DNA of 64,000 nt from Candidatus Gastranaerophilales bacterium (GTDB lineage Bacteria; Cyanobacteriota; Vampirovibrionia; Gastranaerophilales; Gastranaerophilaceae): positions 1-64,000 of the forward strand of contig CALVEB010000002.1 of assembly GCA_944326465.1 (NCBI GenBank), read 5' to 3'. The stretch's first letter is position 1. The number at the start of each line of letters is the position of its first letter. The position numbers and the translations under genes are program-made. Below are positions 771 to 23,882 of the stretch, in pieces. The notes beneath the pieces were generated by a model. It worked only from the letters and a program-made list of their open reading frames with translations, did not search any database and was not told where the DNA came from.

Positions 771-793
771 AGTTTCCGGTGTAAAGAAACAGG

Positions 794-1019
794 ACAGTAC
801 AGAAAAGTGGAACCTGCCTTAAAGTCGCTGTTGGTAAATAATTTTAAATAAATTTAGGGTTTCAGAAAAGTCCAAAATGTCTGATTACTGTCCTTTATAT
901 GTCTAAAAATACCGAAAAAATTTAATAGACATGCCCCAAAGGGTTATTTCCGTAAGAGAAAAGATAAGGACAGTGATAAGACATTCATTGTCAAAAATTT
1001 AACAGAAGTTCCAGAAAAA
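794..1019. repeat. Left-end array of the putative Mu/Tn7-like transposon
   Basis: Three related sites point outward here: ACAGTACAGAAAAGT (794-808), CAGAAAAGTCC (863-873) and AACAGAAGTTCCAGAAAAA (1001-1019). Their reverse complements (cores ACTTTTCTG or TTTTTCTG) match sites at 20208-20325. The 1000-1019 copy equals the reverse complement of 20208-20228 except for one inserted base, and the 794-808 copy matches 20308-20323 apart from one extra T and one substitution. Arrays of three sites in inverted orientation at both ends are the layout of transposase-binding ends in Mu and Tn7. The exact terminal dinucleotides cannot be fixed by eye. Confidence 0.6.
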
Positions 1020-1034
1020 AATTTTTCTGTTCAT

Positions 1035-1076
1035 AAACGGAACCTTAACGGAACTTTATTCGGAACCAAACGGAAC
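1035..1076 (+). promoter_or_regulatory. Four CGGAAC boxes upstream of the DUF262 operon
   Basis: CGGAAC occurs in direct orientation starting at 1038, 1049, 1061 and 1071, spaced 11, 12 and 10 bp, so all four lie on the same face of the helix. The fuller form is AAACGGAAC. The array sits about 50 bp before the DUF262 start. The same box occurs three times between the Mor-like regulator and the transposase (5397-5433). I take it as an operator array bound by a regulator of the element; which protein binds is inference. Confidence 0.6.
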
Positions 1077-1128
1077 ATTAGTTTTAGTATGTTTAATGTA
1101 TAATGAAGTTCAAAGGAAAATAAAGCTG

Positions 1129-5040: not shown

Positions 5041-5061
5041 CATAAAAGATATATTATATTT

Positions 5062-5370
5062 TTATTTTTCACCCTCAACAAATTCTTTAATAACCTTGTA
5101 TACATATCTTGTGGTGGTTTCGCAAGCTAACACAAGTTTATTAATTGTATATTTAGTTCCATCAAAATTATCTATAATATATTGTTTTTTGTATTTCTGA
5201 TTACAATGAGCATGGATTGAAAACTTTTGTCCTGCAGCATTGAACATTAATTTTTTAGTTGCTTCCAAGCCAATAATAGAACATAAAAACTTTAAATCAT
5301 CTGTTGGCAAATTCTCTTCAGTTATGTATTTTGCCCATACTGGCTCTTCTGTTTTGCAATTTCTAACCAT
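5062..5370 (-). CDS. Mor-like (Mu middle-operon regulator family) transcription regulator
   Basis: About 102 residues. The order of features fits the Mor/C family of Mu-like phages: a dimerisation part (LKFLCSIIGLEATKKLM, the typical IGLEAA.kL stretch), a spacer with aromatic residues, and a C-terminal helix-turn-helix (NKLVLACETTTRYVYKVIKEF). The ATG at 5368-5370 is chosen because AAGGAG sits 4 nt upstream; a longer frame to 5454 has no ribosome binding site. It is transcribed leftward away from the transposase, the position occupied by the repressor in Mu. Its own promoter region carries three CGGAAC boxes, suggesting autoregulation. Whether it activates or represses is unknown. Confidence 0.65.
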   Translation of the reverse strand: MVRNCKTEEPVWAKYITEENLPTDDLKFLCSIIGLEATKKLMFNAAGQKFSIHAHCNQKYKKQYIIDNFDGTKYTINKLVLACETTTRYVYKVIKEFVEGEK

Positions 5371-5396
5371 ATTACTCCTTTTCTTTATTATAGTAC

Positions 5397-5433
5397 AAAC
5401 GGAACCAACAAAGGTTCCGTTTTGTTCCGTTTG
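5397..5433. promoter_or_regulatory. CGGAAC operator cluster between regulator and transposase
   Basis: One CGGAAC box (5400-5405) and two in the opposite orientation (GTTCCG at 5414-5419 and 5424-5429), the last two 10 bp apart. They form the arrangement AAACGGAACC-N7-GGTTCCGTTTTGTTCCGTTT. This lies where Mu has its operator and internal activation sequence, between the leftward regulator gene and the rightward transposase. The same boxes precede the DUF262 pair at 1035-1076. Confidence 0.65.
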
Positions 5434-5589
5434 AAAAAAAATCTTCTCTATCACAAAATTTTTGCTTTTTCAATATCAACAAAACAATGTTTTATCTGCA
5501 TTGAAGAAGTCAAAAAAGATGTGTTTCGATATGGATACATTGACTACACTTTGTACAGCAACAGAGTTAATCTGAGAGAGGAGAAAAAT

Positions 5590-7557: not shown

Positions 7558-8239
7558 ATTATTTGTGAAAACACGTAATGTTAAAAATTTTATTGATTTA
7601 ATGAACAACCTTATTGATAAATCAAATGAAGTCCCAAAGATGGGATTAATCTATGGTGATCCTGGTTTAGGAAAAAGTCGAACAGCAGTTTGGTGGGCAA
7701 CACAAAATGATGCGGTCTATGTAAGAGCTCAAAATAATATGACAAGTCATGGAATATTGGAAAAAGTTGTGGAAGATTTAGGAGAAGCACCTTCTAAAAA
7801 ATCTACAGAATTAATGAAACAATGTATTGCCCATTTAAGACTTCATCCACAGATAGTTATTGTTGATGAAATTGATTATCTAATAGGTCATTCCAGAACA
7901 ATTGAAACTTTGAGGGATTTACACGATTTAACGGGTGCTCCCATTGTCCTGATAGGAATGCATGAATCAAAAACAAAACTTGGTAAATACAGACATTTGT
8001 ATGACAGAATTTCTGAAATTATCGAATTTAAACCGTTTTCTAAAGAAGATATGGACATTATTGTAGAAGAATTATCAGAAATAAAAATAACAGACGAGGC
8101 TAAAGAAATATTTTTTGAAAAAACAAATCGTTTTAGACAAGTAATTAAGGGGATTGCTTTACTTGAAAATATAGCTAAAACAAATGGGTTGAATAAAATT
8201 GATGTTAAACAAGTGAAAGGATTAAACATTGAAAAATAA
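7550..8239 (+). CDS. MuB-like AAA+ ATPase (transposition target-selection protein)
   Basis: 229 residues with Walker A GDPGLGKS (residues 36-43) and Walker B IVIVDEIDYL (near 105), followed by a sensor-like VLIGMHE and the C-terminal helical domain of the MuB/TnsC/IstB group. Such ATPases polymerise on DNA, recruit the transposase and give target immunity. AAGGAGG lies 7 nt before the ATG, and the start overlaps the end of the transposase, so both are made from one message. It lacks the long N-terminal HTH of phage MuB, as do transposon-type homologues. Confidence 0.88.
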   Translation: MHKLFVKTRNVKNFIDLMNNLIDKSNEVPKMGLIYGDPGLGKSRTAVWWATQNDAVYVRAQNNMTSHGILEKVVEDLGEAPSKKSTELMKQCIAHLRLHPQIVIVDEIDYLIGHSRTIETLRDLHDLTGAPIVLIGMHESKTKLGKYRHLYDRISEIIEFKPFSKEDMDIIVEELSEIKITDEAKEIFFEKTNRFRQVIKGIALLENIAKTNGLNKIDVKQVKGLNIEK

Positions 8240-9875
8240 AGATTTAATAATAAAAGTAGCAAGAAGATTAGATAAATTTAATCTTGATGAAATAATTGTA
8301 GTATCTGAACTTCAAGAACAAGAAGTGAAAGAAATTTTATCTGATTTAATTAAAGAACAGGTAATTATTAAAAGTAGTAACAAGTATTTTTTTAATAATA
8401 AAAGAAATAATGAGCAAAACGAAATATTATCTACAAAAAACAATACTCTTAAACCTATTATTCTTGAAGAAGAGGAAGGTTATGAGGAACTACTAAAATA
8501 TAATAAAGATGTTCAAAATAAGATAAAAAGATATGTCGCAGCGATAAATTTTGTAATTAATGCTGGAAAAGGTAATTTAAAACGTGTGGTAGAATTATTT
8601 AATGAAACTTCAGGCTTAAAGCGAGTTCCATATTCTATTTTAGTAAAACTTCTTCATAACTATAAAATGTATGGGTTTAAAGGCATATTACCTAAATACC
8701 ATAATCATGGTGAAAGCCCTATTCCAGATGAATTATACACGTGTTTTAAAAATTTTTATCTAACAAAAGAAAAATTAAGTACCAAAGAAGCCCTATATCG
8801 TGCACAAAAGTTATTACACGATGAGCAAAGAATTGAACAACCTTATACATATAACTTAAACTCTTTTACAAGAAAAATTAAAACGGATTTTACGGAAGAA
8901 CAAATTAAATACTTTAGAAACAATGTAAAACCACTAAAAGCTAAAATTTCTAATGATGAAAATGATGAACCGCTTGATATGGAGTTTAAAAATGCTGCCA
9001 GAATTTATCTTAATCGATTAAAAATAGAAAATAAGCAAGAAAGATTATTGCATGAGAAAACAGATTACAAAAATCATCTAAAAGAATATTTTGATAATTT
9101 AACTATTCGAGAAATTACACCCAAAGTTGTTGCTAAGTATAAACAAAGTATGTTTGATAAAGGTTTTAAATTAGTATCTGTGAATCGGTATATTTTACTT
9201 TTAAAAGCTATAATAAGAGGTGTTTGCCCCAAAATAAACAATTTAGTAACAAGAGAGGATAAGGATCGTAGAAATGCCTATGCACTAGATATGAATATTC
9301 TAACTGAAGATGAAATTCTAAAATTACTTAATATATGTAAATTGAAATACCCTGAAGCCTATCCTATAATTTATATTTCATTATCAACAGGAGCTAGTGT
9401 TCCTGAATTATTGGGATTAACTTGGGATAGGGTAGACTTTGAAGAAAATACAATATTTTTAAAATACTTTCTATATGATGAACGTTTAATTACAAATAGA
9501 AGCGGTACTTCAAAACGAAAATTAAAAATTGATAAAAGGATGACTGAGATTTTGAAAGAAAAGTATAAAGCTACAAAACCTTTACCTGCTGATTTTGTTT
9601 TTAGATTTTCTTCACCCAAACTACCACAACAATATTTTGAAAATGTGGTATTAAATGGTTTATCAAAAAAATTGAGAATTCAAAGGATCTATCCAAGTGA
9701 TTTACAACATAACTTTACTAATTTATGCCTTAAGCAAAAAATCCCTTTTACATATATACAAAAATCATTAGGATATTTTGGTATTATAAACTTTGTTAAA
9801 ATATATCGAAATCTAATAGAGCAGTCAGAAGAAAAATACTATAATCCGTTAGAAAGTTTAAAGTTTCTAAAATGA
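8229..9875 (+). CDS. Tyrosine-recombinase-fold protein with degenerate active site, third gene of the transposition operon
   Basis: 548 residues, TTG start with AAAGGA upstream, overlapping the ATPase gene by 11 nt. Residues 1-60 look like a winged helix; about 100-160 resemble Mu-type transposase N-terminal DNA-binding segments (KRVVELFNETSGLKRVPYSI); about 255-335 form the core-binding domain of a phage-type integrase; the rest has the tyrosine recombinase fold. The expected catalytic residues are mostly changed: STGASVPELLGL has S390 where TGLR has Arg; YPSDLQHNF has S490 and Q493 in place of the H and R of HDLRH; LGY has Y516 instead of His. A tyrosine, Y526 in KIYRN, remains. It probably binds DNA ends or target rather than cutting by the usual chemistry. 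A distinct resolvase chemistry cannot be excluded. Confidence 0.7.
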   Translation: MKNKDLIIKVARRLDKFNLDEIIVVSELQEQEVKEILSDLIKEQVIIKSSNKYFFNNKRNNEQNEILSTKNNTLKPIILEEEEGYEELLKYNKDVQNKIKRYVAAINFVINAGKGNLKRVVELFNETSGLKRVPYSILVKLLHNYKMYGFKGILPKYHNHGESPIPDELYTCFKNFYLTKEKLSTKEALYRAQKLLHDEQRIEQPYTYNLNSFTRKIKTDFTEEQIKYFRNNVKPLKAKISNDENDEPLDMEFKNAARIYLNRLKIENKQERLLHEKTDYKNHLKEYFDNLTIREITPKVVAKYKQSMFDKGFKLVSVNRYILLLKAIIRGVCPKINNLVTREDKDRRNAYALDMNILTEDEILKLLNICKLKYPEAYPIIYISLSTGASVPELLGLTWDRVDFEENTIFLKYFLYDERLITNRSGTSKRKLKIDKRMTEILKEKYKATKPLPADFVFRFSSPKLPQQYFENVVLNGLSKKLRIQRIYPSDLQHNFTNLCLKQKIPFTYIQKSLGYFGIINFVKIYRNLIEQSEEKYYNPLESLKFLK

Positions 9876-9897
9876 GTCCTAAGGGGCTCATTTTTTT
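9872..9897 (+). terminator. Rho-independent terminator of the transposition operon
   Basis: ATGAGTCC and GGGCTCAT form an 8-bp stem (one G-T pair) with loop TAAG, followed by seven T. The stem begins inside the stop codon of the recombinase-like gene. Confidence 0.8.
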
Positions 9898-9969
9898 ATT
9901 TTGGTATGAAACTATATAAATTGAATTTTATAACCCTTAATGGCGGAGTTGAACACTTTTTGAACGGTA

Positions 9970-10203
9970 TTAAAATCTAGTTTGAATATTACCTTCCGGA
10001 TAATTTATAAAATATGCATTTAAAGTATCAGAATCTTGTCTAAGATTATGAATAATAGGAGTAATATTTCTAAGCTCCTCATATTCTTGTTGTTTTTGAC
10101 AGAAATAATCAATTACAACAACTGTGTTGTAAATCCGCTCTGCTAATTTTTCTAACTCCCTAAAATCTTTTTGTTTAATGCGATATTTCTTACTTTTACT
10201 CAT
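9970..10203 (-). CDS. Small hypothetical helical protein (77 aa)
   Basis: The start MSKSKKYRIKQKDFRELEKL is preceded by AGGAGG 4 nt before the ATG at 10201-10203, which decides against longer readings to 10254. It is basic at the N-terminus and otherwise helical (ELEKLAERIYNTVVVIDYF). I recognise no family. It lies convergent with the transposition operon and downstream of abiH on the same strand, separated from it by 127 nt in which I see no other gene. It may be an accessory or antitoxin-like gene of the cargo, but nothing in the sequence proves that. Confidence 0.6.
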   Translation of the reverse strand: MSKSKKYRIKQKDFRELEKLAERIYNTVVVIDYFCQKQQEYEELRNITPIIHNLRQDSDTLNAYFINYPEGNIQTRF

Positions 10204-10330
10204 ACAACCTCCTAATGTACACAACACATTAGCGTGAAAGTAAAACAAAAGCATTCAAATCTTTACAGAACAACACAATCATTATGATTAGCTTGTAAAA
10301 TATTTTCCAATTATAGCAATTTTTATTGTT

Positions 10331-11404
10331 TTAAGGAGAATGAAATGTCGCTTCTATTTGAGGTATTAAAATTCCACGTTTAGAATCGTATTGGTTGATA
10401 AATCTAACTTTTGCCATAACTTCCTCTTCTCCGATTATTAAATCAATATTGCTTTGCATTCGAGCCAATGCGTCTTCATCATGGTAATAAATATTAATAA
10501 TAGATTTTTCTTTTGCCAGAAGAATATGTTTCAAAATATTATGGTCGGTTTTATCAAGAGAATGTCCTATTATATGGAATGTCGGAACATATATTTTCTT
10601 AGGATATTTTAACTCATTTAACAGTTCTTGATATGGTTCTATTGTTCCATATTTATGTCTTTGATGATGTTTTTTAAATATATTAAATTCGACAGGAATT
10701 TGTTCATTATCAAAGCTATGAGTTCCCAAAACCATATTACAGCTATCTTCATTATTTATTTTTCCATGTACATAAACTGCTTTTGTTTTTATTCCGCAAG
10801 AACTATAATTGAAATTTATTTTATAAAGCTGTTCACATGTATCTGTATAATTAAAATTCAACAAGCTTACACAATCACTATTTACACGTAAGTTAAATTT
10901 GGGCGTATTTTTTATTTTTCTATTTTCTTCTTCAACTAAATATTTTTCAAACTCTTTTACAAAATCACGAAGTTGACTATATAAAAAGTTAACAAAATCT
11001 TTGATTGTTATACAATAACAATCATTAGCGTTATAAAAGAGTTCAGGTTTTCTAAAATATTTTTGAGATTCATCAAAATTAAATTCTTCATAATCTTTCG
11101 AAATCAAGAAAACTATATCTTTATATCTTTCATACCAAACTCCATTTTTAAAATAAGGCAACTCGCTCAGTTTTGTAATTACATTATAAATCTCATTTTC
11201 AAGATCAATCCATTTATCACCGGCTAGTGTTTTATTTAAAAAATGTTTAACCCAAACATTGTTATATAAAAAGTTGTTGCTATGATCTGTACCAACGCTA
11301 TTAATACTACTATATTTTTCTTGGCAATATTTTAAAAAATCATTATATTTAGTGTCTAATTTGTGAGCTAAATCAAATCCATTTCCTAAAATCAAAATAT
11401 CCAT
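10331..11404 (-). CDS. abiH: AbiH-family abortive infection protein
   Basis: 357 residues. The N-terminus MDILILGNGFDLAHKLDTKY is the hallmark of the AbiH family (nucleotide-binding-like LGNGFDLxHgl.TkY), and the C-terminal FHIIGHSLDKTDHNILKHI is its second conserved block. AbiH proteins of lactococci stop phage growth by an unresolved mechanism. The gene follows hsdR with a 4-nt gap on the same strand, so it is most likely the last gene of the hsdM-hsdS-hsdR operon and would be active as part of a layered defence. A second, internally deleted copy lies at 24214-24603. Confidence 0.85.
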   Translation of the reverse strand: MDILILGNGFDLAHKLDTKYNDFLKYCQEKYSSINSVGTDHSNNFLYNNVWVKHFLNKTLAGDKWIDLENEIYNVITKLSELPYFKNGVWYERYKDIVFLISKDYEEFNFDESQKYFRKPELFYNANDCYCITIKDFVNFLYSQLRDFVKEFEKYLVEEENRKIKNTPKFNLRVNSDCVSLLNFNYTDTCEQLYKINFNYSSCGIKTKAVYVHGKINNEDSCNMVLGTHSFDNEQIPVEFNIFKKHHQRHKYGTIEPYQELLNELKYPKKIYVPTFHIIGHSLDKTDHNILKHILLAKEKSIINIYYHDEDALARMQSNIDLIIGEEEVMAKVRFINQYDSKRGILIPQIEATFHSP

Positions 11405-11408
11405 AGAA

Positions 11409-14400
11409 CTACTCCTGATATTCTTTAAAGTTTTCCACTTGTTTCATAACTTTATTAAATACTTCCGGACTATATTGAGGTGGATATCCGTTTTTAACTA
11501 AACACATTTTTATTTCAAATTTTAAATTATTCCGTACATTCTGATTATTAAGCCAATCGGTAAAAGAAGATTTTATATCAATTATTTCTTTAACTTTTTG
11601 TGCTAATGATTTACATTTATCATTAATCACTACTCCATCTACTTCTTTATCAGTACCGTATTCGAAATTATGCTGATTCCTTAATGCAATCAAAATATCA
11701 TAGAAAGCTTTTTCTTCAAAAGTTAAACCAATTTTACGGAAACTTTCTCGACTTTCGTTCATTTGGCTTAATATAGATAAAGCCTGTTCGGTTGCAGTTT
11801 TAATAATATCTTCAGAAGCTTTTTCTTGTGTTACTCCTGCTTCTTCTTCACTTAAATGTTTACGGCGTTCATTATATTCTTCAAGCGTTTTTTCTAGCAA
11901 TTCTTGGAAAGTTTTTGATGCCACTTGATTTACTTTTCCATATTCTTTTATTTGTTTACGAAGCATTTTTACAAGAAGCTCAAGTTTTGTTGCAGGCATT
12001 TTCACATCTGATAATTTTTCAAAATACTCAGGAGAAAAAATATCTTCTTCCTCGCTTGATTCTAGAATGCTTTCAACTCGATTATATTTTAGAGCTTCTT
12101 CAACCATTTTGGAAACTACAATATTCATAGTTTCAGTATCAACTTCGCTTGTTCCGCTCATTTTTCGTACAAAACCTGCAATAGCCATAAAACATTGTGC
12201 AAGTGCTGATTCTTCTTCGCCAAGTTCGCCTGATGGCTGACAAACGTCGAATGCTGTTCTCATTCTTTTTACAGTTTTTAAGAAATAAGTTTTAAATGAA
12301 ACTTTCTTAGAACCATTTCTACCTTCTGTTTTTAATTCTTGAGTTGAGACAAAAACAAATTCAGCGGCTTTAGCCAGTAATCGGTATCTCGTAGCAGGAT
12401 CACATTGCGGATTTAAAAATGGCGATAAATCATAATCCCCAAATAAATTTTTCAATATTTCTAAGTTTTCTCTAAATATCTTAGTTGCCTGTTCAACATC
12501 ATCGGCATTTGGTGCAACAGAAGAATCTCCGCCATATATTTTCATAGCTTCACGCATATTATCACGGATACCGATATAATCTATAACCATCCCATACTCT
12601 TTACCTGGATATTTTCTGTTTACACGACTGATGGTTTGAATTAACAAATGTTTTTTCAACGGTTTATCATTATACAAATATGTAAGTGAAGAAACATCAA
12701 AACCTGTAATCCACATATCAACAACTATTACAATTCTGAAATTAGATTTTTCTTTTTTAAATAAAGCATCCAATTCCTCTGAACGTTTATCGTTTCTTGT
12801 TCCGCCCAGATAATCATACATATCCTTTTTATCATTACTACCTACACTTGCGACCATAGCAATACAAGGCATAGGTTTTAGTTCATTAAGTTCTTCTTGA
12901 GTTGCACAAATCCCGTCAGGAATTTTCTTTTCTTCAAACCATTCAGGATATTTTTCTTTAAATTTCTGCAATAAATCATAAGCAATTTCTCTTTTAGAAC
13001 AAACAATCATTGCCTTCTGGATTCTATCTGGCTCATTGTTGCACGCAGAAACATAATGGTCATGAATATCTACCGCAAGACGTTCCAAACGAGAAGACTC
13101 TCCAAGGATAACTTCCATAGACGACATGGCACTTTTACTTGCTGCAATATCTTCTTCAGTTGCGCCGTCATCAGCACACTTTTTATAATAATCCTCAATT
13201 TCTTTAACCTTTGATTGATCAAGTAAAACTTTTGCTATACGAGGATGATATTTTATAGGAACTGTAAGTCCGTCAGCAACAGCCTGATCCATAGTATATC
13301 GGTCTATTTCATCGCCAAACGTTTGATATGTTTCAGCAATAGGTGTGCCTGTAAATCCAACAAAAGTGGCGTTTGGAAAAGCTTCTTTTAAAACTTTTGC
13401 ATAAGGTTTTGAAATAAGAGCTTTCATATTCTCATCAGTATCTTTGCTGAACTTAATTTCTTTTGCATGTTCAATTTGGGTTCTGTGCGCTTCATCAGAA
13501 AAACAAATAATATTCTGACGTTCGTTTATCAAACCAATTTTATCATCTTTTCTGTCACAGAATTTTTGTATTGTACAAATATAAAAACCGCCGCTTTGTC
13601 TTGCACTTAATTCTTCCCTTAATTGTTTTCTGTTTTTTACGATAGAAACTTCTCCAAGATTCAAAAACTCTTTGCTTTTTGTAAACAACTTCGCACCTTG
13701 TTTTTGCAACTCTTCTCTATCAACAATTAAAATAATTGTTGGGGAACCGATTTGAGGGATATTTGTACATCTTAGCGCAAGTTGTCTTGCTAAAAATGCC
13801 ATTGTGTAAGTTTTTCCGCATCCTGTTGCACCAAAATATGTTCCGCCCTTTCCACTGCCGGTTTCAACAGAATTAACAATACTTTCTTTTAATAGCCTTG
13901 CAGCAAAAAATTGTGGGTACCTGCAAACTATTTCTTGTTCTTCTCTATCATAGATGCTGTCTTGAAAATAAATGTAATCTCTGAATATTTCAAGAAAACG
14001 ATTAGGCTCATATACACCTTTTATCATTGTTTGAGTTTCTGCAAACGGCAATGTAGAAATTTTGTCATCATGGTTTACTCTTCGCCACGCATAGAAATGT
14101 TCATAAGGAGTTCTTACTGTGCCAAGTCTTGTTTTTACTCCATCTGAAATACATGCTAATGGACAATAATGCAATAAATGCGGAATATCTCTCCAATATC
14201 GAATATTAATTTGTTCCCAAGCATTAAAAATTGTAGCATTTGGATCTGCAGGATTTTTAAGTTCTATAATACAAAGAGGCATACCATTAACATACAAGAT
14301 AACATCCGGTCTTCTGTTTTTGTTTTGTCCGTTATCCGTATATTCTATTGTTAGTTGGTTAACAGCTCTAAAGATATTTTTTGATGTTTTGGTTTGCTCT

Positions 14401-14759
14401 TTATCATCTAAATATTCAAAATCAATTAACGGAATAATTCTTGTTATGCCATTTTTAGGTGTAAATTGAATCCCGTCAACCATCCAAGTATAGATTTTAT
14501 GTAATGTCGCAAAATCACTTTCACTACCAACAAGACGAACATTATCAAATATTTGTGTGATTTCGTCTTCTTCTAAATCTGGATTTGTCCTTGCTATAAA
14601 TTCTTTGAAATCATCTTCTATTAAAACATCTCTTTTGTTTACACGCTTAACGTTATTTCCTAAAAGATATTCCCATCCTTCATCCTGCAAAAAAGCAATA
14701 AATGCACATTCAAACTCAGATTCACAAAAAAGACCGTTATATTCTCGTAACTTAGCCAT
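11409..14759 (-). CDS. hsdR: Type I restriction endonuclease subunit R
   Basis: 1116 residues, a normal length. The N-terminal PD-(D/E)xK nuclease has RRPDVILYV and LCIIELKNP (about 150-170). The helicase motor has Walker A GATGCGKTYT (about 306), DEAH box FSDEAHRTQ and motif III FVGFTGTPIA, then the second RecA domain with DMWITGFDVSSLTYLY. The C-terminus is helical and contacts the methylase. It translocates DNA and cuts unmodified DNA at distance when joined to HsdM and HsdS. The ATG at 14757-14759 has GGAGG 6 nt upstream and follows the hsdS stop by one base. It looks intact. Confidence 0.93.
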   Translation of the reverse strand: MAKLREYNGLFCESEFECAFIAFLQDEGWEYLLGNNVKRVNKRDVLIEDDFKEFIARTNPDLEEDEITQIFDNVRLVGSESDFATLHKIYTWMVDGIQFTPKNGITRIIPLIDFEYLDDKEQTKTSKNIFRAVNQLTIEYTDNGQNKNRRPDVILYVNGMPLCIIELKNPADPNATIFNAWEQINIRYWRDIPHLLHYCPLACISDGVKTRLGTVRTPYEHFYAWRRVNHDDKISTLPFAETQTMIKGVYEPNRFLEIFRDYIYFQDSIYDREEQEIVCRYPQFFAARLLKESIVNSVETGSGKGGTYFGATGCGKTYTMAFLARQLALRCTNIPQIGSPTIILIVDREELQKQGAKLFTKSKEFLNLGEVSIVKNRKQLREELSARQSGGFYICTIQKFCDRKDDKIGLINERQNIICFSDEAHRTQIEHAKEIKFSKDTDENMKALISKPYAKVLKEAFPNATFVGFTGTPIAETYQTFGDEIDRYTMDQAVADGLTVPIKYHPRIAKVLLDQSKVKEIEDYYKKCADDGATEEDIAASKSAMSSMEVILGESSRLERLAVDIHDHYVSACNNEPDRIQKAMIVCSKREIAYDLLQKFKEKYPEWFEEKKIPDGICATQEELNELKPMPCIAMVASVGSNDKKDMYDYLGGTRNDKRSEELDALFKKEKSNFRIVIVVDMWITGFDVSSLTYLYNDKPLKKHLLIQTISRVNRKYPGKEYGMVIDYIGIRDNMREAMKIYGGDSSVAPNADDVEQATKIFRENLEILKNLFGDYDLSPFLNPQCDPATRYRLLAKAAEFVFVSTQELKTEGRNGSKKVSFKTYFLKTVKRMRTAFDVCQPSGELGEEESALAQCFMAIAGFVRKMSGTSEVDTETMNIVVSKMVEEALKYNRVESILESSEEEDIFSPEYFEKLSDVKMPATKLELLVKMLRKQIKEYGKVNQVASKTFQELLEKTLEEYNERRKHLSEEEAGVTQEKASEDIIKTATEQALSILSQMNESRESFRKIGLTFEEKAFYDILIALRNQHNFEYGTDKEVDGVVINDKCKSLAQKVKEIIDIKSSFTDWLNNQNVRNNLKFEIKMCLVKNGYPPQYSPEVFNKVMKQVENFKEYQE

Positions 14760-14760
14760 A

Positions 14761-15894
14761 TCACACCTCCACTGTCCTTTTTGCTTCTTCAATAGAACCT
14801 TTTATAAGAATAGGGCAAATCTCTTTGATTTGTGCTTTCAATTTTTCATTAATTTCTTTGCGCTTATTGTATGCATTGTAGATATTGACAATACTTTGTT
14901 GGATTTTTGTATCTGGAACTGGTATTTTAATTTCGTAAAAACGATCCATATCTAGGTTAGTTCTAATACTTGCATCGCTATAGAACCAACCTAGTCTATC
15001 AATTTCTTTACGAGAAAACCACATCATTATATATTCTGGAAGAACACTTTTATCTTGTGCTTCTAAAACGGTATATGCTGGAGAGATTATAATAGGTTCT
15101 TCTCCTCGGTATAAAGCTATGCGAATACATTCATCTCTTCCAGTTTGCATTCCTGAAAATGCAAATTGTCCATTTTTTACTAATTTATATTTTGATAAAT
15201 CCACTTCAAAAGTGTTTGCAACTGATGGCATAAACTGTTTTGTAATGTTTATACCTTGCACATCTTTTATAGAACCATCATTATTACGACAGTCAATTTC
15301 ATTTAAAATATTTCCTACTGCTATTTTATTTGCATTATGCTTATACTTATCAATAAGAACTTCAAAAGATTTTTTTAAATCCACCAAACCACGTTCATAG
15401 GTTTGTTGGTTTTCTACCATCGCTTTGTAAATATCAACATATTTTTGTTGAATAGGAAGTGGCGGAAATTTTAGTTCAATGTTAATAAAATCATCCCAAG
15501 ACATACCATCACGAATAGAACTATCTGTATTGAACCAAAAATATCTATCTCTTTCTTTTGATTTTAAATATATAAAAAAATAATCGTTTAATATATCGAC
15601 ATTTTCTTTAAATCTAAAAACAAAATAAGCCGGGCTTACAATTTTATTGTTTTTAGAATGGTTATATGCAATAGGCAAAACAACATCACGACCAACGTGC
15701 ATTAAATTACAAGCGAAATATTTAGGTGGAACAATCTTATATCCACTAGTATCAGTACCAACCTGATTGGAAGGTTCAAAAAATTCTTTTTCTTTATTAA
15801 TACCAGAAATATCATTATTTGTTAAATCAGGGATATTGCATTTTTCTGAATATAATTCTATATATTCAAAAAGTTTAATCTTCTTTAATGGCAT
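14761..15894 (-). CDS. hsdS: Type I restriction-modification specificity subunit S
   Basis: 377 residues with two target recognition domains, each followed by a helical spacer (LPIQQKYVDIYKAM near 175 and TKIQQSIVNIYNAYNKR near 350). The two domains look paralogous: both contain a block of type GRD...SPAY...WF..D.SIR. This suggests two related half-sites. The start at 15892-15894 overlaps the hsdM end by 20 nt and has a GGGGGA element upstream. It determines which bipartite DNA site the complex methylates or protects; the site cannot be read from the sequence. Confidence 0.88.
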   Translation of the reverse strand: MPLKKIKLFEYIELYSEKCNIPDLTNNDISGINKEKEFFEPSNQVGTDTSGYKIVPPKYFACNLMHVGRDVVLPIAYNHSKNNKIVSPAYFVFRFKENVDILNDYFFIYLKSKERDRYFWFNTDSSIRDGMSWDDFINIELKFPPLPIQQKYVDIYKAMVENQQTYERGLVDLKKSFEVLIDKYKHNANKIAVGNILNEIDCRNNDGSIKDVQGINITKQFMPSVANTFEVDLSKYKLVKNGQFAFSGMQTGRDECIRIALYRGEEPIIISPAYTVLEAQDKSVLPEYIMMWFSRKEIDRLGWFYSDASIRTNLDMDRFYEIKIPVPDTKIQQSIVNIYNAYNKRKEINEKLKAQIKEICPILIKGSIEEAKRTVEV

Positions 15895-17485
15895 AACCAA
15901 TCCCCCTAAATGCATCTTCCAGCATTTTTTGAGATTCTTTTTCAGCCTTCAAAATATTTTTCATTTCAGACTGAATACGAGTCATTTCTTTTTCATAATC
16001 AATATCTAAGTCGTGGTCAATAAATTCGATATATTTACTTGGTGTAAGAGCCCAGCCTTTAGCTTCTATTTCTTCAATATTCACACTGCGATATAATTCT
16101 GGCTCTTGGTAGTTTTTGCCGTCTATTCCTTCGCCTTGCCAAGTATGGTAAATGTTTGAAGCTTTTTCAATTTGGTCAGGTGACAATAATATTTTCTTTT
16201 TATTTTCACCCTTCACAGTATTTTCTCTCCATTGACGCAAATCCATAAAAAGTATTTCATTTTCACGGTTTCTCAACTTACGTCCGTGGTAGTTTCCGCC
16301 TTTTTTGTTTTGGTTTAATATCCAAAGAGTTACACTAATATCTGTAGTGATAAATAATTCTCTCGGCAGAACGATTATTGCCTCTACTTTATCTTTTTGA
16401 ATTAGTTTTTTTCTGATTTCTAAAGTATCGCTATCATTTAAAGCTCCGTTTGCGAGTAAAAAGCCTGCAACACCATCAGATGGCTTCAAGTGAGATAGCA
16501 TATGTAAAATCCACGCATAGTTAGCGTTGCTCTCAGGTGGTGTTCCATAATTAGTCCAACGAGGATCATTTTTTAAATTATCATCATACCAACCTTTAAG
16601 ATTGAATGGCGGGTTTGCCATAATATAGTCAAAATGTAATCCCTTATGCAAATCATGAGTAAATGAAGAATCATTTGTTTCTCCAAGATCATGACTAAGT
16701 CCGCGAAGAGCCAAGTTCATTTTAGCCAAACGGTACGTTGCAGCATCTTTTTCTTGACCGTAAATATTAATTCTATTTATATCACCTTGTCTTGCTTTTA
16801 TAAGCTCAGAACTTTGAATAAACATACCACCCGAACCGCAAGCAGGGTCATATAATGTACCCTCATAAGGTTCTATCATAGATGCAATGAGTTGTACAAC
16901 GTCATGTGGGGTGTAGAATTCGCCTTCTTCTTTTGTTGCATTTACCGCAAATTCCTTTAAAAAATACTCATAAACACGACCGATAAGGTCTTTTTCTTCT
17001 CCAAAAGCTTTATGGCTGATTTTATTAACTTCATCTACGAGCTTTTTAATATCATTAGGTGCAAGGTTCCTATTGGTAAATGTACCTTCTATAAAACAAC
17101 CTTTTAATTGGCTTGAATTTGTTGCAATACTATGCAGTGCAGTATCTAGTGCAACATTCAATTTTGGTGCTGTAGTATTTATAATTGTAGACCAACGAGC
17201 TTCCGGCGGCAAATTGTAGGTTCCGTCTGTAAATGTTGCATCATCAAAAAATGCAGCTCTTATGTTTTCATCATCAGGGTCTAGCCCTTGTTGTACTAAG
17301 GTCTGACGTAACTTTTCAATACCATCTTCATATTTTTCGCCGATGAATCTTAAAAATACCAAAGTTAGCATCATATCGCGCTTTTCAAAAAACGAACCTG
17401 AATTACGTGCTGCCCTAAGAATATCACGGCATTTGAATAAAATATTATCCAGATTTATACCTTTTTCAACAGTTTTCTTTGCCAT
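15875..17485 (-). CDS. hsdM: Type I restriction-modification N6-adenine methyltransferase subunit M
   Basis: 536 residues. The N-terminal helical HsdM domain (LDNILFKCRDILRAARNSG) precedes the SAM-dependent methylase with motif I DPACGSGGMF (about 212) and catalytic motif IV IMANPPFN (about 286). With HsdS it methylates host DNA at N6 of adenine. It is the first gene of the minus-strand operon hsdM-hsdS-hsdR-abiH and is divergent from the zinc-finger nuclease gene. The ATG has GCGGGG upstream. Confidence 0.93.
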   Translation of the reverse strand: MAKKTVEKGINLDNILFKCRDILRAARNSGSFFEKRDMMLTLVFLRFIGEKYEDGIEKLRQTLVQQGLDPDDENIRAAFFDDATFTDGTYNLPPEARWSTIINTTAPKLNVALDTALHSIATNSSQLKGCFIEGTFTNRNLAPNDIKKLVDEVNKISHKAFGEEKDLIGRVYEYFLKEFAVNATKEEGEFYTPHDVVQLIASMIEPYEGTLYDPACGSGGMFIQSSELIKARQGDINRINIYGQEKDAATYRLAKMNLALRGLSHDLGETNDSSFTHDLHKGLHFDYIMANPPFNLKGWYDDNLKNDPRWTNYGTPPESNANYAWILHMLSHLKPSDGVAGFLLANGALNDSDTLEIRKKLIQKDKVEAIIVLPRELFITTDISVTLWILNQNKKGGNYHGRKLRNRENEILFMDLRQWRENTVKGENKKKILLSPDQIEKASNIYHTWQGEGIDGKNYQEPELYRSVNIEEIEAKGWALTPSKYIEFIDHDLDIDYEKEMTRIQSEMKNILKAEKESQKMLEDAFRGIGYAIKED

Positions 17486-17634
17486 ACAACCCCGCTTTTG
17501 TTAAGTTTATTCTATCACAAAAATATACAATCCATCGTTATGTAATAACCGTGACATAATTCATTAATACATGTATGCGTGTCAAAAACGGACAAAAAAT
17601 ATCATTATAAAATTTAAAAAACTCATGTTTATTG

Positions 17635-17640
17635 TATAAT
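17635..17640 (+). promoter_or_regulatory. -10 element upstream of the zinc-finger nuclease gene
   Basis: A consensus TATAAT lies about 45 nt before the GTG start; the -35 region (around TTTAAA at 17613-17618) is weak, which suggests help from an activator. The 190-nt divergent region 17486-17675 also contains TACATGTA (about 17570), a short palindrome that could be an operator. Confidence 0.4.
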
Positions 17641-17684
17641 GATGCCAATAAAAATATACAACGTAACAAATAGGGATGTGTATA

Positions 17685-20186
17685 GTGACTATTAATTTAA
17701 AAGATGTAGATTGGCGAAAATATCGTGTTTTTAATGCTGATGAAGGATACAACAGTGAAAAAGTATTAAAATTAATAGATTTAAAAAATTCTTATGATAT
17801 TGAATTTGTATTTAATAAATTAAAAAACGAACAGCCTGTTTTAAATACAGAAGATAAAGAGTCTGCAATAATAAATAGTTTGTATAAAAGTAATTTTGGT
17901 AAAACATTATTTAAGTTTAATAAATATATTAAAAATAAAATACATTATGCTAAACATATTTTACAAATAGATGATTCTGATACAGAAGAGGATTTGTCTA
18001 TATTGTTAAACATATATGAAAAAATTGAGTATGAAACTAATTTACTTGATCAAATTCATTTGTATTACACGTATTCAAATAGAAATTTAGAAACAAGTTA
18101 TGCTGTAAATAACAAAATTGATGTTAATAAGTTAGAGACAGTTTTTAATGATAACTTTATTAAGAAAAATATCATAAGTTCTGGGAAATTTGAATGTATA
18201 TATCATAAATATGATAAAACAAGTGAGTATATATGCGGAATTTATTTTCCTGGAGAAAGAGAACGTTATGCAGAAGCATTTGAAAATTTAATAACTTATA
18301 ATCCAAAGGAAGCTTTTATCATATATTATGATTCTCATAACAATAATTTTATTTTCCGTGGCTCAAATAAATATGCTGAAAAATTTAAAAATGTATTAGA
18401 AAAAAACTTAGACATTGAAATGTTTGAATGGGGTAATGCTATTGATTTTGATGCCACTTCATTTATGAACAGACTAAAACAGAAACCTTCAAAAAGTGAA
18501 TTATCATTAACTGCTCTATACATAAATGGTCTTTCTTTGGGCAAAAATGTGGATTTACTATTGTCACAAAATTCTTCAAGAAAAAATGATATCTCAGATA
18601 AAATTAATCAACTTATTTCTACTAAATCAATTACTATTAATTCTTTTAAGGATATAAATTATTTAAAAATATTTTATAAAATACCAATGAAAAATACATT
18701 AAAAGAACGCGAAGTAAAGGTTGTTTATGATACAACTAATACAAAAGTTAAATTAATACTGAATTCAAAAGATTTAATACCGATAGAAAAGGCTTTTGTT
18801 AAAGATCATTTTCAAAAAGAATTTGGAATCCCCTTGGAAAAAACTCTTAAACCAGAATTATTTCAAAATGGAATACTCGATTTATACAAACATATATTGT
18901 TAAAAGATAAGGTAGAAAACCTTGAAAGTACTGTTCGAGGAATATTTAATGAATTATTACAAAAAGATTTTGTCAACATTGATGATGAAAGAACATGGTG
19001 TTGTGAAAACTGTGATGAATATAATGATATAAGTGTAAATAACTGTAAGACTTGTCATACAGAAAAGAAACCAAATGCAAAAACATATTCAACATACTCT
19101 ATAAATGAAGAAAAAATTAATGAGTATATAATAGATTTATTAAAAAAAATTATTCCAACCTTTAAAGATAGCAGTACAAATGATAATAAGGATTTTTATA
19201 TTACAACAATCAAAAATCATAATGATGATGAGATGTATATAGTATTATCAAGTAATAAGTTATCTGTATCTTACATTAATAAGCTTAAGAGAGAATCAAA
19301 AGCAGTTATTTTTGTTTTATCAAATCAAAACACTGCGATTGATAATACAATATTATGTAACGACCTTTTTTCTTATATACCATTAGAATACTTTTTGGCA
19401 TATGAAAAAATGGATCCAAAAGAGGTAGAAGATCTTATAAAAAATAGATATGAAATATGTATTAATAAAGCTAATATTATTGCCGAAAATGCAACTGTAA
19501 ACTCACTCGATAACTTGAAAAATACACAAGCAGCATATGCTACCTCTAAGATTAAAGGAGATTGTTTTGAAAATGATATTTATAATTTATTTAGATATAT
19601 TTTTAAAACAACCAAACAATTAGGCAAAAATTTAAAAGGCAAAAAAGTTCCTGATGGATATTTTGATATCCACATAACGGGTGGTTCGGAAATTGAGAAA
19701 GAGAAAAAATATACATTATTATGGGATGCAAAATATTCAGAAAAAGTTGATGGCTATGATTTGGATATTTCTGAAAAGCGGAAACTTGTTGAATATATAA
19801 ATAAGTATAATTCAGATTATGAAATTCGAAGATTTTCGACCCAAAATACTTTGGATGTATTTATTATTGTATACAATAATATGAGTGAAAACAAATTTAG
19901 TGAAATAGTATCTTATGTTCGTGAAAAATCAGAATGGAAAGGCAAATTACTATTTTTAAATAGTAGTGCTTTAAGTAATTTAACACAATTTATTCTGCAA
20001 TATAATGAACAATATCAATCAAAAAGAAATGTTTTCAATAATGATTTTATGAATAATATTGTTAAGATTAATGATTTGCCGGAATATAATTTTTCTATTG
20101 CTAATGAAGGGGACATTAAAAAATTTATTGAATTATTTGATAAACGTACCAAAACTATAGAAAGCATACATGAGAAAGTTGAATAA
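17685..20186 (+). CDS. Large protein with RanBP2-type zinc finger and PD-(D/E)xK nuclease domain
   Basis: About 833 residues. A RanBP2-like zinc finger lies near 436-460 (WCCENCDEYN then NNCKTCHTEKKP: W-x-C-x2-C-x3-N-x6-C-x2-C). The C-terminal domain has the pattern of a restriction endonuclease: KGDCFENDIYNLF, then PDGYFDI (about 655) and LLWDAKYS (about 680), giving acidic residues and the D-x-K catalytic lysine. The first 430 residues are lysine- and asparagine-rich with no family I recognise. The GTG at 17685 is preferred over the ATG at 17676 because AGGG lies 9 nt before it. It is divergent from hsdM. A sequence- or modification-specific restriction nuclease is likely; no matching methylase is adjacent, so self-protection might rely on a type IV mode. 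Confidence 0.65.
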   Translation: MTINLKDVDWRKYRVFNADEGYNSEKVLKLIDLKNSYDIEFVFNKLKNEQPVLNTEDKESAIINSLYKSNFGKTLFKFNKYIKNKIHYAKHILQIDDSDTEEDLSILLNIYEKIEYETNLLDQIHLYYTYSNRNLETSYAVNNKIDVNKLETVFNDNFIKKNIISSGKFECIYHKYDKTSEYICGIYFPGERERYAEAFENLITYNPKEAFIIYYDSHNNNFIFRGSNKYAEKFKNVLEKNLDIEMFEWGNAIDFDATSFMNRLKQKPSKSELSLTALYINGLSLGKNVDLLLSQNSSRKNDISDKINQLISTKSITINSFKDINYLKIFYKIPMKNTLKEREVKVVYDTTNTKVKLILNSKDLIPIEKAFVKDHFQKEFGIPLEKTLKPELFQNGILDLYKHILLKDKVENLESTVRGIFNELLQKDFVNIDDERTWCCENCDEYNDISVNNCKTCHTEKKPNAKTYSTYSINEEKINEYIIDLLKKIIPTFKDSSTNDNKDFYITTIKNHNDDEMYIVLSSNKLSVSYINKLKRESKAVIFVLSNQNTAIDNTILCNDLFSYIPLEYFLAYEKMDPKEVEDLIKNRYEICINKANIIAENATVNSLDNLKNTQAAYATSKIKGDCFENDIYNLFRYIFKTTKQLGKNLKGKKVPDGYFDIHITGGSEIEKEKKYTLLWDAKYSEKVDGYDLDISEKRKLVEYINKYNSDYEIRRFSTQNTLDVFIIVYNNMSENKFSEIVSYVREKSEWKGKLLFLNSSALSNLTQFILQYNEQYQSKRNVFNNDFMNNIVKINDLPEYNFSIANEGDIKKFIELFDKRTKTIESIHEKVE

Positions 20187-20207
20187 TGTATTAAATTTTT
20201 CATTTAA

Positions 20208-20325
20208 TTTTTCTGGAAACTTCTGTTACTTTTTCTGTTTTCTCATGTTAATTAACATCCGGGTCGGAAAAATTAAGTTTACCCAAAAAATCAAACTGGG
20301 AAACTGGACTTTTTCTGGACTGTAC
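20208..20325. repeat. Right-end array of the putative Mu/Tn7-like transposon
   Basis: Three outward-facing sites: TTTTTCTGGAAACTTCTG beginning at 20208, ACTTTTTCTG at 20228-20237 and ACTTTTTCTGGACTGTAC at 20308-20325. They match the left-end sites (794-1019) in inverted orientation. The 343-nt stretch between the nuclease gene and the next gene holds only these repeats and several TCGGAA motifs (around 20264, 20397, 20445, 20466); I see no gene in it. Confidence 0.6.
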
Positions 20326-20333
20326 GGATAGAT
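20321..20333 (+). repeat. Right copy of the direct repeat TGTACGGATAGAT
   Basis: Same 13 bases and same orientation as 726-738, immediately outside the outermost right-end site. A shorter copy, TGTACGGATA, follows at 20377-20386. Confidence 0.5.
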
Positions 20334-20528
20334 TGAGATTTGCAGAATTTCAGTGAGATACGCACCGTTTTTGAGTTGTACGGATAATTTGATTATTTCG
20401 GAATAGTCCAGTTACGCAAATTTTTAGAAAAATTTAAAACGAGGTCGGAAAACATTTCTTTTAGTTCGGAAAATTTTTCACAAAATTTATGAATATACGA
20501 ATGATTCAATTTTGTAACCTGCAACTTA

Positions 20529-22106
20529 TTAATGAATTTTCTTTACTATATTTCTTGTTTGCCAGAGGTATAATTGTCCGTTTTTTATACCGCCCTCAAT
20601 ATCTTGAGGTTTCCCGAATTCTTTTTCTAATACAAGTGCATTTTTAACCAAATTTTCTATTATATCCCGAATTTCATTGATATTTTTAAGTGAGGTTGAT
20701 TGTTTATGTATTAGTTTATAATTTTCATCGAACAAATATTCTTCAAATTTGCTGTGTTCTTGTTCTATTTTTAATTTTTTTGTTAGTTTATTATATGTAA
20801 TTTGATATGGATCAGGTTTACACCATCTTTCTTTATTTATAAACAATTCTATTAACATTTTATTCTTATCAAAAGGTGCTTCGGTGTATGTAGTAAATGA
20901 ATAATCCGAAATAATACGGTCTTGTATTATTACACTCGGTTTTATTAAATCGTCAGGAATGTTATGTTTCTCTCGTGATTTGACCGCGATTGGTTTATTT
21001 TTTGAATTCATTACTTGATAAATATCATATAATACTAAGTCTTTAGTATCTTGAGGGTGTGAATCATATAATCCGGCAGCGGAATAACCTTCTAAATCTT
21101 CGCCGTTAAATGCAGAACGCACCATAACATCCCGCTGTGTAATGATTTTTGAGGCATAGTCTTTTATTTCATCAAGAATTTTATTATCATGCCATAGGTT
21201 ATCAGGGGTTTCTGTAATTATATTTTCAACCTTTTCTAAATATCCAGATGGTAAAACAAAAGCGTTTGGAATAATTACATCTTTCAGCTTTCTTTCTTTG
21301 ACTAAATCTTTCATCAGTTTAAGATTATAGGCTTTGTTTCCGACTGTATCTTTTTCACACTCATCTAAAGATAAAATTCTATCTACTTTTCTCATTTGCG
21401 GAATTTCAATAGTATTTGTTTTGGAATTGCTTTTAATAATTTTTTCTATTGGTTTAAATTCAATATTTTCATTTTCATTGGAGATGAAAATAAATTTTCC
21501 TTCCAGATTATTCAAATCATTTAATATCTTTTTGTCTGTAACCAGCATTCCAAAAGAAAAATAATCCCTGCACAGTGCTGCGAAATGGGATAACAAGTCA
21601 GCAGTGCCGGATTTTAATATTATCCCGTTTGTTCGATTAAAGTACTTATAACATTTTTCCAATTCTTCATCATTGTCGCAAATTATAATTAACGGCTCTT
21701 TTGATTTTAAAAGTGTATCATCAATATTTTTGGCTTGAACAAGTTTCCCTTGGGCTGAACCTTCTGATAAAACTAAATTTGGAGTTTTTTTTATTTGTTT
21801 TGTAAGTGCACGTAATTTCTCCGGTATAAAATATTTTTCTTTTCCGTTATTTTCGTATTTACTGGTATCTTCGTATTTTATTTTATATTTGTTAGTATCG
21901 TAAATATTATATTCTGACGTATAATATTTGCCATCATAGACCATTGGAATTTGCTTATTCTCTGTCTGGAGTACAGGATGAGAACCAAGGTTTTCAGAAT
22001 TATCCGTACTTATGTATATACCGGAATCTTGACCGTATTTTTTAACTAAGAAAAAATTTGCCTTAAAATTTATATTTGGGTTAGTTCTTACTATATCTAC
22101 TTTCAT
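20529..22106 (-). CDS. Glucan,water-dikinase-like protein (His-swivel domain followed by PPDK-type ATP-grasp)
   Basis: 525 residues starting MKVDIVRTNPNINFKANFF, the FKA tag common in proteins of this lineage. Residues about 15-95 are beta-rich and have the look of a starch-binding CBM. Residues 108-195 match the PEP-utiliser mobile domain: LSEGSAQGKLVQAKN and SGTADLLSHFAAL with phosphohistidine candidate H174. Residues 255-525 match the PPDK/PEP-synthase ATP-grasp: VGNKAYNLKLMKDL, MVRSAFNGEDLEGYSAAGL and a terminal LWQTRNIV. His domain before ATP-grasp, with a possible CBM in front and no PEP-binding barrel, is the order of glucan,water or phosphoglucan,water dikinases, which phosphorylate starch or glycogen. 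PEP synthases have the reverse order. Substrate is inference. The gene lies between accessory blocks. Confidence 0.6.
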   Translation of the reverse strand: MKVDIVRTNPNINFKANFFLVKKYGQDSGIYISTDNSENLGSHPVLQTENKQIPMVYDGKYYTSEYNIYDTNKYKIKYEDTSKYENNGKEKYFIPEKLRALTKQIKKTPNLVLSEGSAQGKLVQAKNIDDTLLKSKEPLIIICDNDEELEKCYKYFNRTNGIILKSGTADLLSHFAALCRDYFSFGMLVTDKKILNDLNNLEGKFIFISNENENIEFKPIEKIIKSNSKTNTIEIPQMRKVDRILSLDECEKDTVGNKAYNLKLMKDLVKERKLKDVIIPNAFVLPSGYLEKVENIITETPDNLWHDNKILDEIKDYASKIITQRDVMVRSAFNGEDLEGYSAAGLYDSHPQDTKDLVLYDIYQVMNSKNKPIAVKSREKHNIPDDLIKPSVIIQDRIISDYSFTTYTEAPFDKNKMLIELFINKERWCKPDPYQITYNKLTKKLKIEQEHSKFEEYLFDENYKLIHKQSTSLKNINEIRDIIENLVKNALVLEKEFGKPQDIEGGIKNGQLYLWQTRNIVKKIH

Positions 22107-22206
22107 TTATACTTTGTGCAATATCCTTCAAAATAAATTTATTGATTATAGTATATTAAAAACTCTAAAAATTAAATTTGCTACTTTTACATAACTTACC
22201 GAAAAA

Positions 22207-22253
22207 AATCAAACCATGTGGAACAAATAATCAAACCATGTGTTCTTTTACAA
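22207..22253. repeat. Tandem AATCAAACCATGTG repeats in front of the Sll1717-type gene
   Basis: AATCAAACCATGTG occurs at 22207-22220 and 22229-22242, 22 bp apart. The second copy extends to CAAACCATGTGTTCTTTTAC (22232-22251), and 19 of 22 bases recur at 24048-24069 on the other side of the Sll1717-type gene, next to an integrase remnant. The rest of the 231-nt gap (22107-22337) shows no gene. Confidence 0.5.
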
Positions 22254-22337: not shown

Positions 22338-23882
22338 ATGTCCGAAATTGTTTTTAAGAGAAGTATGAATATTGGAACTATTAGTGCAGAAAGTGATAAT
22401 GAATTTTTAGAAAATTGTTTTTTGGCAACACCTGAATTTGAAGAATTATGTGATTTTAATAGTAAAAAAATGATTCTTTTAGGGCGTACAGGTTCAGGGA
22501 AAACTGCATTATTAAATAAAATCCGAGAAAAAGTTGATTGTTACATAGAAGTTAAACCTGATACATTTGCATTACAATATATTAGCAACGTGCCATTTGT
22601 ACAAAGAATGGAAAAAGAAAAAATAAATTTAGATATATTTTACAAATTTTTGTGGTTGCATGAGTTAATTTCTCAGATTGTAAAAAATTATTTTGCATAC
22701 AATAAACGAAAATTAGTAGATGAATTATCTGAAAAAGTTGATGATTTAGGAAGAATTTCTCAATTAAAAAAATATATGAATGAATATGAGGGTATATTTT
22801 TTGATGAAGGAACAACAGAGAAAATCACAAAAGAAATTGAAAAACAAGTATCAGGCTTTCTTGGAACTGATATTGCCAATATCAATAGTAAATTATCAGA
22901 TAATCAGAAATCTGAAATAGAAACAAAGGCTAGTCAATATATAAACAAAAAACAGATTTCACAACTTAAAAATATTATTACATTGTTCAAAGAGTACTTT
23001 GGCTGTAATAAACAGAAAAAAATAGCGGTTGTAATTGATAATTTGGATGAAAATTGGATAGATTTAACATCTAAATATAAATTAATTGATGCATTACTAA
23101 ATGCCATCAGACTATTTGTGGATGTTCCAAATATGAAAATACTATTAGCTATGCGAGCAGATTTATTAACAAAAACTTGCGATGTAACTCTTAGACAAAA
23201 TGAAAAAGATGAATCATTTACATTACGATTAAACTGGACATCTAAAATGTTAAAAGAACTTTTAGACAAAAGAATTGAATTTTTGTTTAATTATAAATAT
23301 AAAAAAAATAGTAGGATTACATTTTCTGATATGTTTAATTTTTATATTAACGATACTCCAGCATTTGATTATATAATTTCGAGAACAATGATGAGACCTC
23401 GCGATGTTATTAGTTTTGTAAATCATTGTATATTTCAGGCTGATAATGAGACAAAAATAGATGAACGGAATGTATTGGAAGCTGAAAAAATATTCCGGCA
23501 GGAAAGATATAAGGCCTTAGAACATGAATGGGGAAATATATATGGAAAGATAGACACATATTTTCAAATTATGTATAAATTGGGAAATGAATTTACATTA
23601 GAGGATGTTTTTAATGGCGAAAAATTTACAGATATAGAGGTCATTGCTTATTCAAATAATACTTTAGCAGATAGGATTTACAACCGAACAGTAGATGATA
23701 AATCATTAAAAGAGGGTTTTGCAAAAGATATTATTAATATTCTTTTTACTATGGGATTAATTGGTATAAAAGATAAAAAAACAAAAATGGTAAATTTTGC
23801 AACTCCTTATAGAGCAACATTATCAGAACTTGACTTTGCAAATGAACTTTGTTTTGAAATTCATCCACTTTTCAGAAAATAG
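22338..23882 (+). CDS. P-loop ATPase of the Sll1717 type
   Basis: 514 residues. After a short N-terminal strand comes Walker A LLGRTGSGKTALL (about 47-60). A Walker B-like block is AVVIDNLDENW (about 232), followed by MKILLAMRADLL, a sensor strand found in KAP/STAND-related ATPases, and MMRPRDVISFVNHC. The DNLDENW motif and overall length fit the family named after Synechocystis Sll1717. These ATPases are scattered in accessory regions and are suspected to act in defence or signalling. The ATG has GTAGGAG upstream. The gene stands alone, flanked by imperfect direct repeats (22232-22253 and 24048-24069), so it may be a mobile cassette. Confidence 0.75.
   Translation: MSEIVFKRSMNIGTISAESDNEFLENCFLATPEFEELCDFNSKKMILLGRTGSGKTALLNKIREKVDCYIEVKPDTFALQYISNVPFVQRMEKEKINLDIFYKFLWLHELISQIVKNYFAYNKRKLVDELSEKVDDLGRISQLKKYMNEYEGIFFDEGTTEKITKEIEKQVSGFLGTDIANINSKLSDNQKSEIETKASQYINKKQISQLKNIITLFKEYFGCNKQKKIAVVIDNLDENWIDLTSKYKLIDALLNAIRLFVDVPNMKILLAMRADLLTKTCDVTLRQNEKDESFTLRLNWTSKMLKELLDKRIEFLFNYKYKKNSRITFSDMFNFYINDTPAFDYIISRTMMRPRDVISFVNHCIFQADNETKIDERNVLEAEKIFRQERYKALEHEWGNIYGKIDTYFQIMYKLGNEFTLEDVFNGEKFTDIEVIAYSNNTLADRIYNRTVDDKSLKEGFAKDIINILFTMGLIGIKDKKTKMVNFATPYRATLSELDFANELCFEIHPLFRK

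Follow-up and report, generated by a model that had tools for sequence, protein, structure and literature searches.

The window analyzed is a stretch of 64,000 nucleotides from a Candidatus Gastranaerophilales bacterium (contig CALVEB010000002.1). An open reading frame on its minus strand, between positions 20529 and 22106 (stop codon included), encodes a protein of 525 amino acids resembling the glucan, water dikinases (GWDs). The translation showed an ATG start and no internal stop codon, indicating that the ORF is intact, and the GWD-like gene was found in a single copy in the 2.07-Mb genome, which is 99.7% complete. Pfam analysis of the product revealed the phosphohistidine domain PF22973 (GWD1_pHisD; aa 112-221, positions 21444 to 21773, minus strand) ahead of PF01326 (PPDK_N; aa 309-521, 62.2 bits). 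The whole ATP-binding domain, supported by Pfam, structure match, and tree, comprises aa 240-522 (20541 to 21389, minus strand) and contains K258, R330, E336/D337, E504, Q516, and R518. The PF22973 score of the query was 28.5 bits against a cut-off of 27; this narrow margin is not due to chance, because each of the 15 full-length proteins aligned matched both families (best PF22973 E = 4e-11). No PEP-utiliser or rifampin domain was detected by Pfam in the query or the 15 full-length members, the C-terminus included.

The alignment of the 15 full-length members, whose identity to the query ranged from 29 to 93%, was used to locate the catalytic residues. H174 (21585 to 21587, minus strand), the predicted phosphorylated catalytic histidine, was invariant and paired with the TSHLxxRARN histidine in two bacterial GWDs. 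The residues R180, K258, R330, S331, N334, E336, D337, E494, Q501-G506, W515, Q516, and R518 were also invariant. Between the query and six relatives, the whole-protein dN/dS was 0.18-0.26, with values of 0.14-0.19 for the ATP domain and 0.19-0.51 for the N-terminal part. Purifying selection acts on the intact copies (dN/dS ~0.2).

Next, the protein was compared with long bacterial GWDs. A genome scan revealed two of them, ~1115 aa each, in one Auribacterota genome (L123, 2302-5652; L094, 682-4023), both with the GWD1-type Ig domain PF23166 (56-60 bits), GWD1_pHisD (52-56 bits), and PPDK_N. The domain was found in 0 of 43 other genomes of the same phylum, and thus bacterial GWDs look sporadic in that phylum. 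The L123 GWD is followed by a 559-aa ORF (L123, 5665-7344), the N-terminal part of which resembles the GWD Ig region by eye. The query shared 27% identity with L094 over aa 224-506 (E 7e-18), and the alignment was co-linear from the phosphohistidine domain to the C-terminus with GWDs bearing the GWD1-specific domain PF23166. In a small comparison set composed without plant sequences, the ATP-domain profile of the compact family scored bacterial GWDs highest (122-123 bits), followed by a Peptoclostridium PEP-utilising enzyme (103 bits), PEPS-like proteins (56-58 bits), and PPDK (18 bits). The ATP-domain tree of this small set separated the compact family and the two full-length Auribacterota GWDs from the PEPS/PPDK types with support of 100/99. 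At the sequence level, domain order and ATP-domain affinity confirmed the predicted GWD-type assignment of the ORF, and the domain order of PEP synthase and rifampin phosphotransferase (RPH) was not found. The initial annotation had described a GWD-like dikinase with a phosphohistidine domain before the ATP-grasp, in a form shorter than that of plants and algae; Pfam order, profile scores, tree, and alignment agree with the former, and the length of 525 aa against ~1115 aa in bacterial GWDs agrees with the latter.

Known dikinases carry N-terminal starch-binding modules, CBM45 in GWD and CBM20 in PWD. Two AlphaFold models of the query showed an Ig-like beta-sandwich at the N-terminus (aa ~15-95; 21822 to 22064, minus strand), a possible glucan-binding domain with weak fold matches. 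The Foldseek search with this domain gave nothing significant (all E > 0.3), and the VIA matches reached only Z 5-7, a range that could result from mere common topology. Many entries in the VIA list were domains of isoamylase, pullulan hydrolase, maltogenic amylase, and branching enzyme, and CBM56, CBM48, and a glycogen-targeting subunit were also listed (Z 5-7). No Pfam CBM family, CBM20 included, matched the N-terminus of the query or of any of the 15 members. Those starch-binding families that do not appear in the structure-match lists are not excluded by this. The weak matches lean towards domains of alpha-glucan enzymes and are no more than suggestive. The possible starch-binding N-terminus proposed earlier is thus weakly supported, by the Ig-like fold and the mostly alpha-glucan-enzyme matches but not by a Pfam CBM. 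An FKA motif (aa 14-16; 22059 to 22067, minus strand) is common to the full-length relatives, F14 and A16 being invariant in the alignment. The motif F-[KTG]-[AG] was seen ~10-50 residues from the start in several proteins of the lineage (window 22059-22067 and 41081-42181, L071, L053, L059, L089, L092, and L111), and its enrichment at positions 10-19 is owed largely to the GWD family itself.

The gene lies on a small transposon-like unit. The body of the unit (20263 to 22252, minus strand) contains the GWD gene only, is delimited by sharp ends of similarity, and is interrupted by an insert at 780-20257. Its left end (22198 to 22252, minus strand; TGTAAAAGAACACATGGTTTGATTATTTG...) is shared with family genomes; its sequence is TGTAAAAG..., in which TTTGATT sites recur. 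The displaced right end (702 to 770, minus strand; terminus ...CAAAAAAGTACA) was detected by nhmmer with 62.7 bits, and its sequence is as in L055, L048, and L088; in relatives, the right end ...CAAAAAAGTACA carries similar sites in the opposite orientation. The termini TGTA...TACA and the repeated TTTGATTATTT sites in opposite orientation constitute TGT...ACA-type ends with internal repeats. The 5-bp duplication GTTAT was exact in L058, and none was exact in the window copy, L048, L056, or L057. No transposase was found inside the unit, where the GWD gene stands alone between the ends; no empty insertion site was found in relatives, and the flanks gave no Rfam match for a non-coding RNA. Judging from the ends, the unit is probably a non-autonomous Tn7/Tn5053-like element. 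A gene for an Sll1717-family P-loop ATPase (22338-23882; 229.6 bits) adjoins the unit, outside both mobile units.

With one mismatch allowed, the left-end 24-mer was present in 158 of the 383 family genomes, and the reversed-pattern control gave 0 among the matches listed. The repeat end TGTAAAAGAACACATGGTTTGATT, counted in these 158 genomes, was often located near contig ends, beside varied single genes or alone (for example, L127-L156; G000:C29:1847-1870, C29:4521-4544, and C14:30176-30199). The TGTAAAAGAACACATGGTTTGATT repeat ends apparently belong to a widespread non-autonomous transposon family. The idea of a tagged effector-like cargo, prompted by L092 and L108, was dropped after 30 further left-end loci revealed diverse, mostly untagged genes.

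The insert of 19.5 kb (780 to 20257, plus strand) has TGT...ACA ends and is flanked by an exact 5-bp duplication, TCCGG, at 775-779 and 20258-20262. Among its products are a Mu-transposase-C protein, a TniB-like ATPase, a tyrosine recombinase, two GmrSD-type proteins, AbiH, and a type I restriction-modification system, together with an 836-aa protein without family assignment. This insert is a complete Tn7/Tn5053-like defence island inside the GWD unit, the right end of which lies 19.5 kb away at 702-770. Since the island and its TCCGG duplication lie between the parts of the unit, the island jumped into the GWD unit. Membership of the GWD gene in the island was ruled out, as the gene is located outside the 5-bp duplication and gave no PADLOC match.

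The phosphohistidine domain was detected in 17 of 292 sampled genomes of the phylum, all from one family and from 9 of 115 genera. The close relatives all came from 'Candidatus Gastranaerophilales' or gut/rumen assemblies, in accordance with the gut cyanobacterial relative named at the outset. The GWD-like family belongs to the Gastranaerophilales lineage, and the window copy is patchily distributed on its transposon-like unit. Five further genomes sampled from the genus gave no match to a GWD-like gene, and the window copy was 93% identical to a copy in another genus. The DNA similarity to relatives ended sharply on both sides of the unit, and no conserved flanking genes were found among close relatives. 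Neighbours were conserved in one other group (L070-L073, L081, and L091), indicating that some GWD-like copies have settled. Many relatives are remnants, truncated or frameshifted; together with the patchy distribution, this indicates that the gene is dispensable. The claim that the gene is native rather than recently acquired was not supported, given the patchy distribution, the identity of 93% across genera, and the transposon-like unit; the argument from the lineage tag to a native origin was rejected on account of distribution and transposon ends. Carriage by phages or plasmids was rejected, as no relative was found in viral contigs or phages and the single plasmid match was a PEP-utilising enzyme whose mobile domain is C-terminal.

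Several relatives showed features of their own. In L059 (8660-8740), the gene for a GWD relative is interrupted where a run of the 5-bp repeat CAATA lies between the parts for the His and ATP domains, and slippage at this run could act as an on/off switch. The relatives in L023 (493-2826) and L024 (460-2790) are 777-778 aa in length with a C-terminal extension of ~200 aa, for which no Pfam family was matched in L023. Three divergent GWD-like copies were present in each of two single assemblies, JAEEHV (L062, L065, and L068) and UBA1221 DBXD (L082, L084, and L089).

With modest confidence, we favor the interpretation that the protein is a compact GWD-type alpha-glucan dikinase that acts on a cytosolic glucan, most likely endogenous glycogen, and whose gene spreads as transposon-like cargo. 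The interpretation builds on the observed domains and their order, the conserved catalytic residues, purifying selection, and closeness to bacterial GWDs. The phosphohistidine-mediated chemistry is established for plant GWD (PMC12892837), and we infer the phosphotransfer chain of the compact enzyme by analogy with that reaction. ATP would bind at the C-terminal ATP-grasp domain, its beta-phosphate would be transferred to H174 on the phosphohistidine domain, and the gamma-phosphate would be released to water. H174 would then donate the phosphate to a hydroxyl group on a glucosyl unit of an alpha-glucan inside the cell, in all likelihood endogenous glycogen, with the N-terminal beta-sandwich positioning the chain; both the alpha-glucan acceptor and this role of the N-terminal domain are presumed. 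The gene would have spread among gut Gastranaerophilales as cargo of the small transposon-like unit.

The genome contains a glycogen-synthase-like gene (485 aa, 236 bits) and an alpha-glucan-phosphorylase-like gene, and fermentation of starch or glycogen has been predicted for Gastranaerophilales (PMC4040986). No signal peptide was evident by eye in the 525-aa protein and the reaction needs ATP; a cytosolic glucan is therefore likelier than dietary starch, and host dietary starch, suggested in the initial annotation, is an unlikely substrate. No glycogen or starch gene was found among the neighbouring genes examined, and no clear glucan phosphatase partner was found in the genome. The only candidate for the latter, a 211-aa DSP-like protein that scored below threshold, has a CX5R motif but lacks the laforin-type signature and was rejected. 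These absences speak against the favored interpretation, as do the lack of conserved neighbours among close relatives, the weak N-terminal fold match, the missing middle region and shortened ATP-domain segment relative to larger GWDs, and the dispensability of the gene.

A rather unlikely alternative is that the enzyme is a GWD-descended dikinase that has kept the H174 chemistry, lost its glucan specificity, and moved to another acceptor such as a polysaccharide, sugar, glycolipid, or protein. The GWD1-type Ig domain and the middle region that full GWDs possess have been lost, the N-terminal part evolves fast relative to the ATP domain, and the gene sits in a mobile setting away from glycogen genes, all of which is consistent with such a shift. 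However, the phosphohistidine domain of every member still matches the GWD1-specific family, and the weak N-terminal matches tend towards alpha-glucan enzymes. Survival of a non-catalytic or decaying ORF by chance on the transposon is very improbable: many relatives are degraded as described above, but the dN/dS of ~0.2 and the invariance of catalytic residues in intact copies argue against it.

If the alpha-glucan dikinase interpretation holds, the protein may be a minimal bacterial enzyme, that is, a self-contained core carried between gut bacteria as the only gene on a non-autonomous Tn7/Tn5053-like element and phosphorylating glycogen reversibly in some strains; this wider proposal is tentative. 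With the GWD catalytic core in 525 aa, the enzyme would be an accessible target for studies of structure and mechanism. Were glycogen the substrate, the action of a starch-type dikinase on glycogen would be shown for a bacterium of the animal gut, and the link of GWD to organisms that store starch, most of which bear plastids, would be broken. The patchy distribution of bacterial GWDs might also be explained by the mobile setting.

Among known enzymes, RPH, PEP synthase, and PPDK matched the ATP domain in structure (Z 20-23; Foldseek, VIA), the best solved structures being those of RPH and PEP synthase. Matches to RPH and PEP synthase had been named beforehand as grounds for rejecting a GWD, and they were indeed found; this match cannot discriminate GWD from RPH or PEP synthase, since a high-resolution structure has been solved for no GWD or PWD (PMC12892837). 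An antibiotic phosphotransferase of the RPH type or a PEP-synthase-like enzyme is scarcely credible, because the best solved structures and the weak NCBIfam matches to PEP synthase (scores under one tenth of the cut-offs) are outweighed by a His domain that precedes the ATP domain, the lack of a rifampin-binding or PEP-binding domain, the position of the ATP domain with GWDs in the tree, and the lack of any GWD structure as competitor (PMC12892837). RPH and PEP synthase thus share the ATP-domain fold with the query, whereas they carry the ATP domain first and the phosphohistidine domain after it, possess substrate domains missing in the query, and fall on the other side of the ATP-domain tree.

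Like Tn7/Tn5053-like elements, the GWD unit has TGT...ACA ends and repeated internal sites, but it has no transposase genes of its own. A published tree of 2018 includes bacterial and cyanobacterial GWD homologues, some of them thought to be laterally acquired (PMC6260743). No description of the compact architecture or the transposon setting was found in the limited literature searched; GWDs of bacteria as such have thus been covered by published trees, and the compact, mobile form looks new. PWD/GWD3 is similar to the query in having a single N-terminal beta-sandwich followed by the His and ATP domains, and CBM20 comes first in its layout; however, the query is much shorter and no member gave a Pfam CBM20 match. 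GWD1, which occurs in plants and algae and sporadically in bacteria, the Auribacterota genome being one example, shares with the query the GWD1-type phosphohistidine domain ahead of a PPDK-type ATP domain, the catalytic His and ATP-site residues, and the clustering of the ATP domains. In contrast, the query has under half the length of bacterial GWDs, gives no PF23166 match, has an Ig-like N-terminal domain without type assignment, lacks the long middle region that separates the N-terminal module from the phosphohistidine domain in larger GWDs, and has a shortened ATP-domain segment GLGEA...YPG (GLGEAIV..YPG in GWDs).
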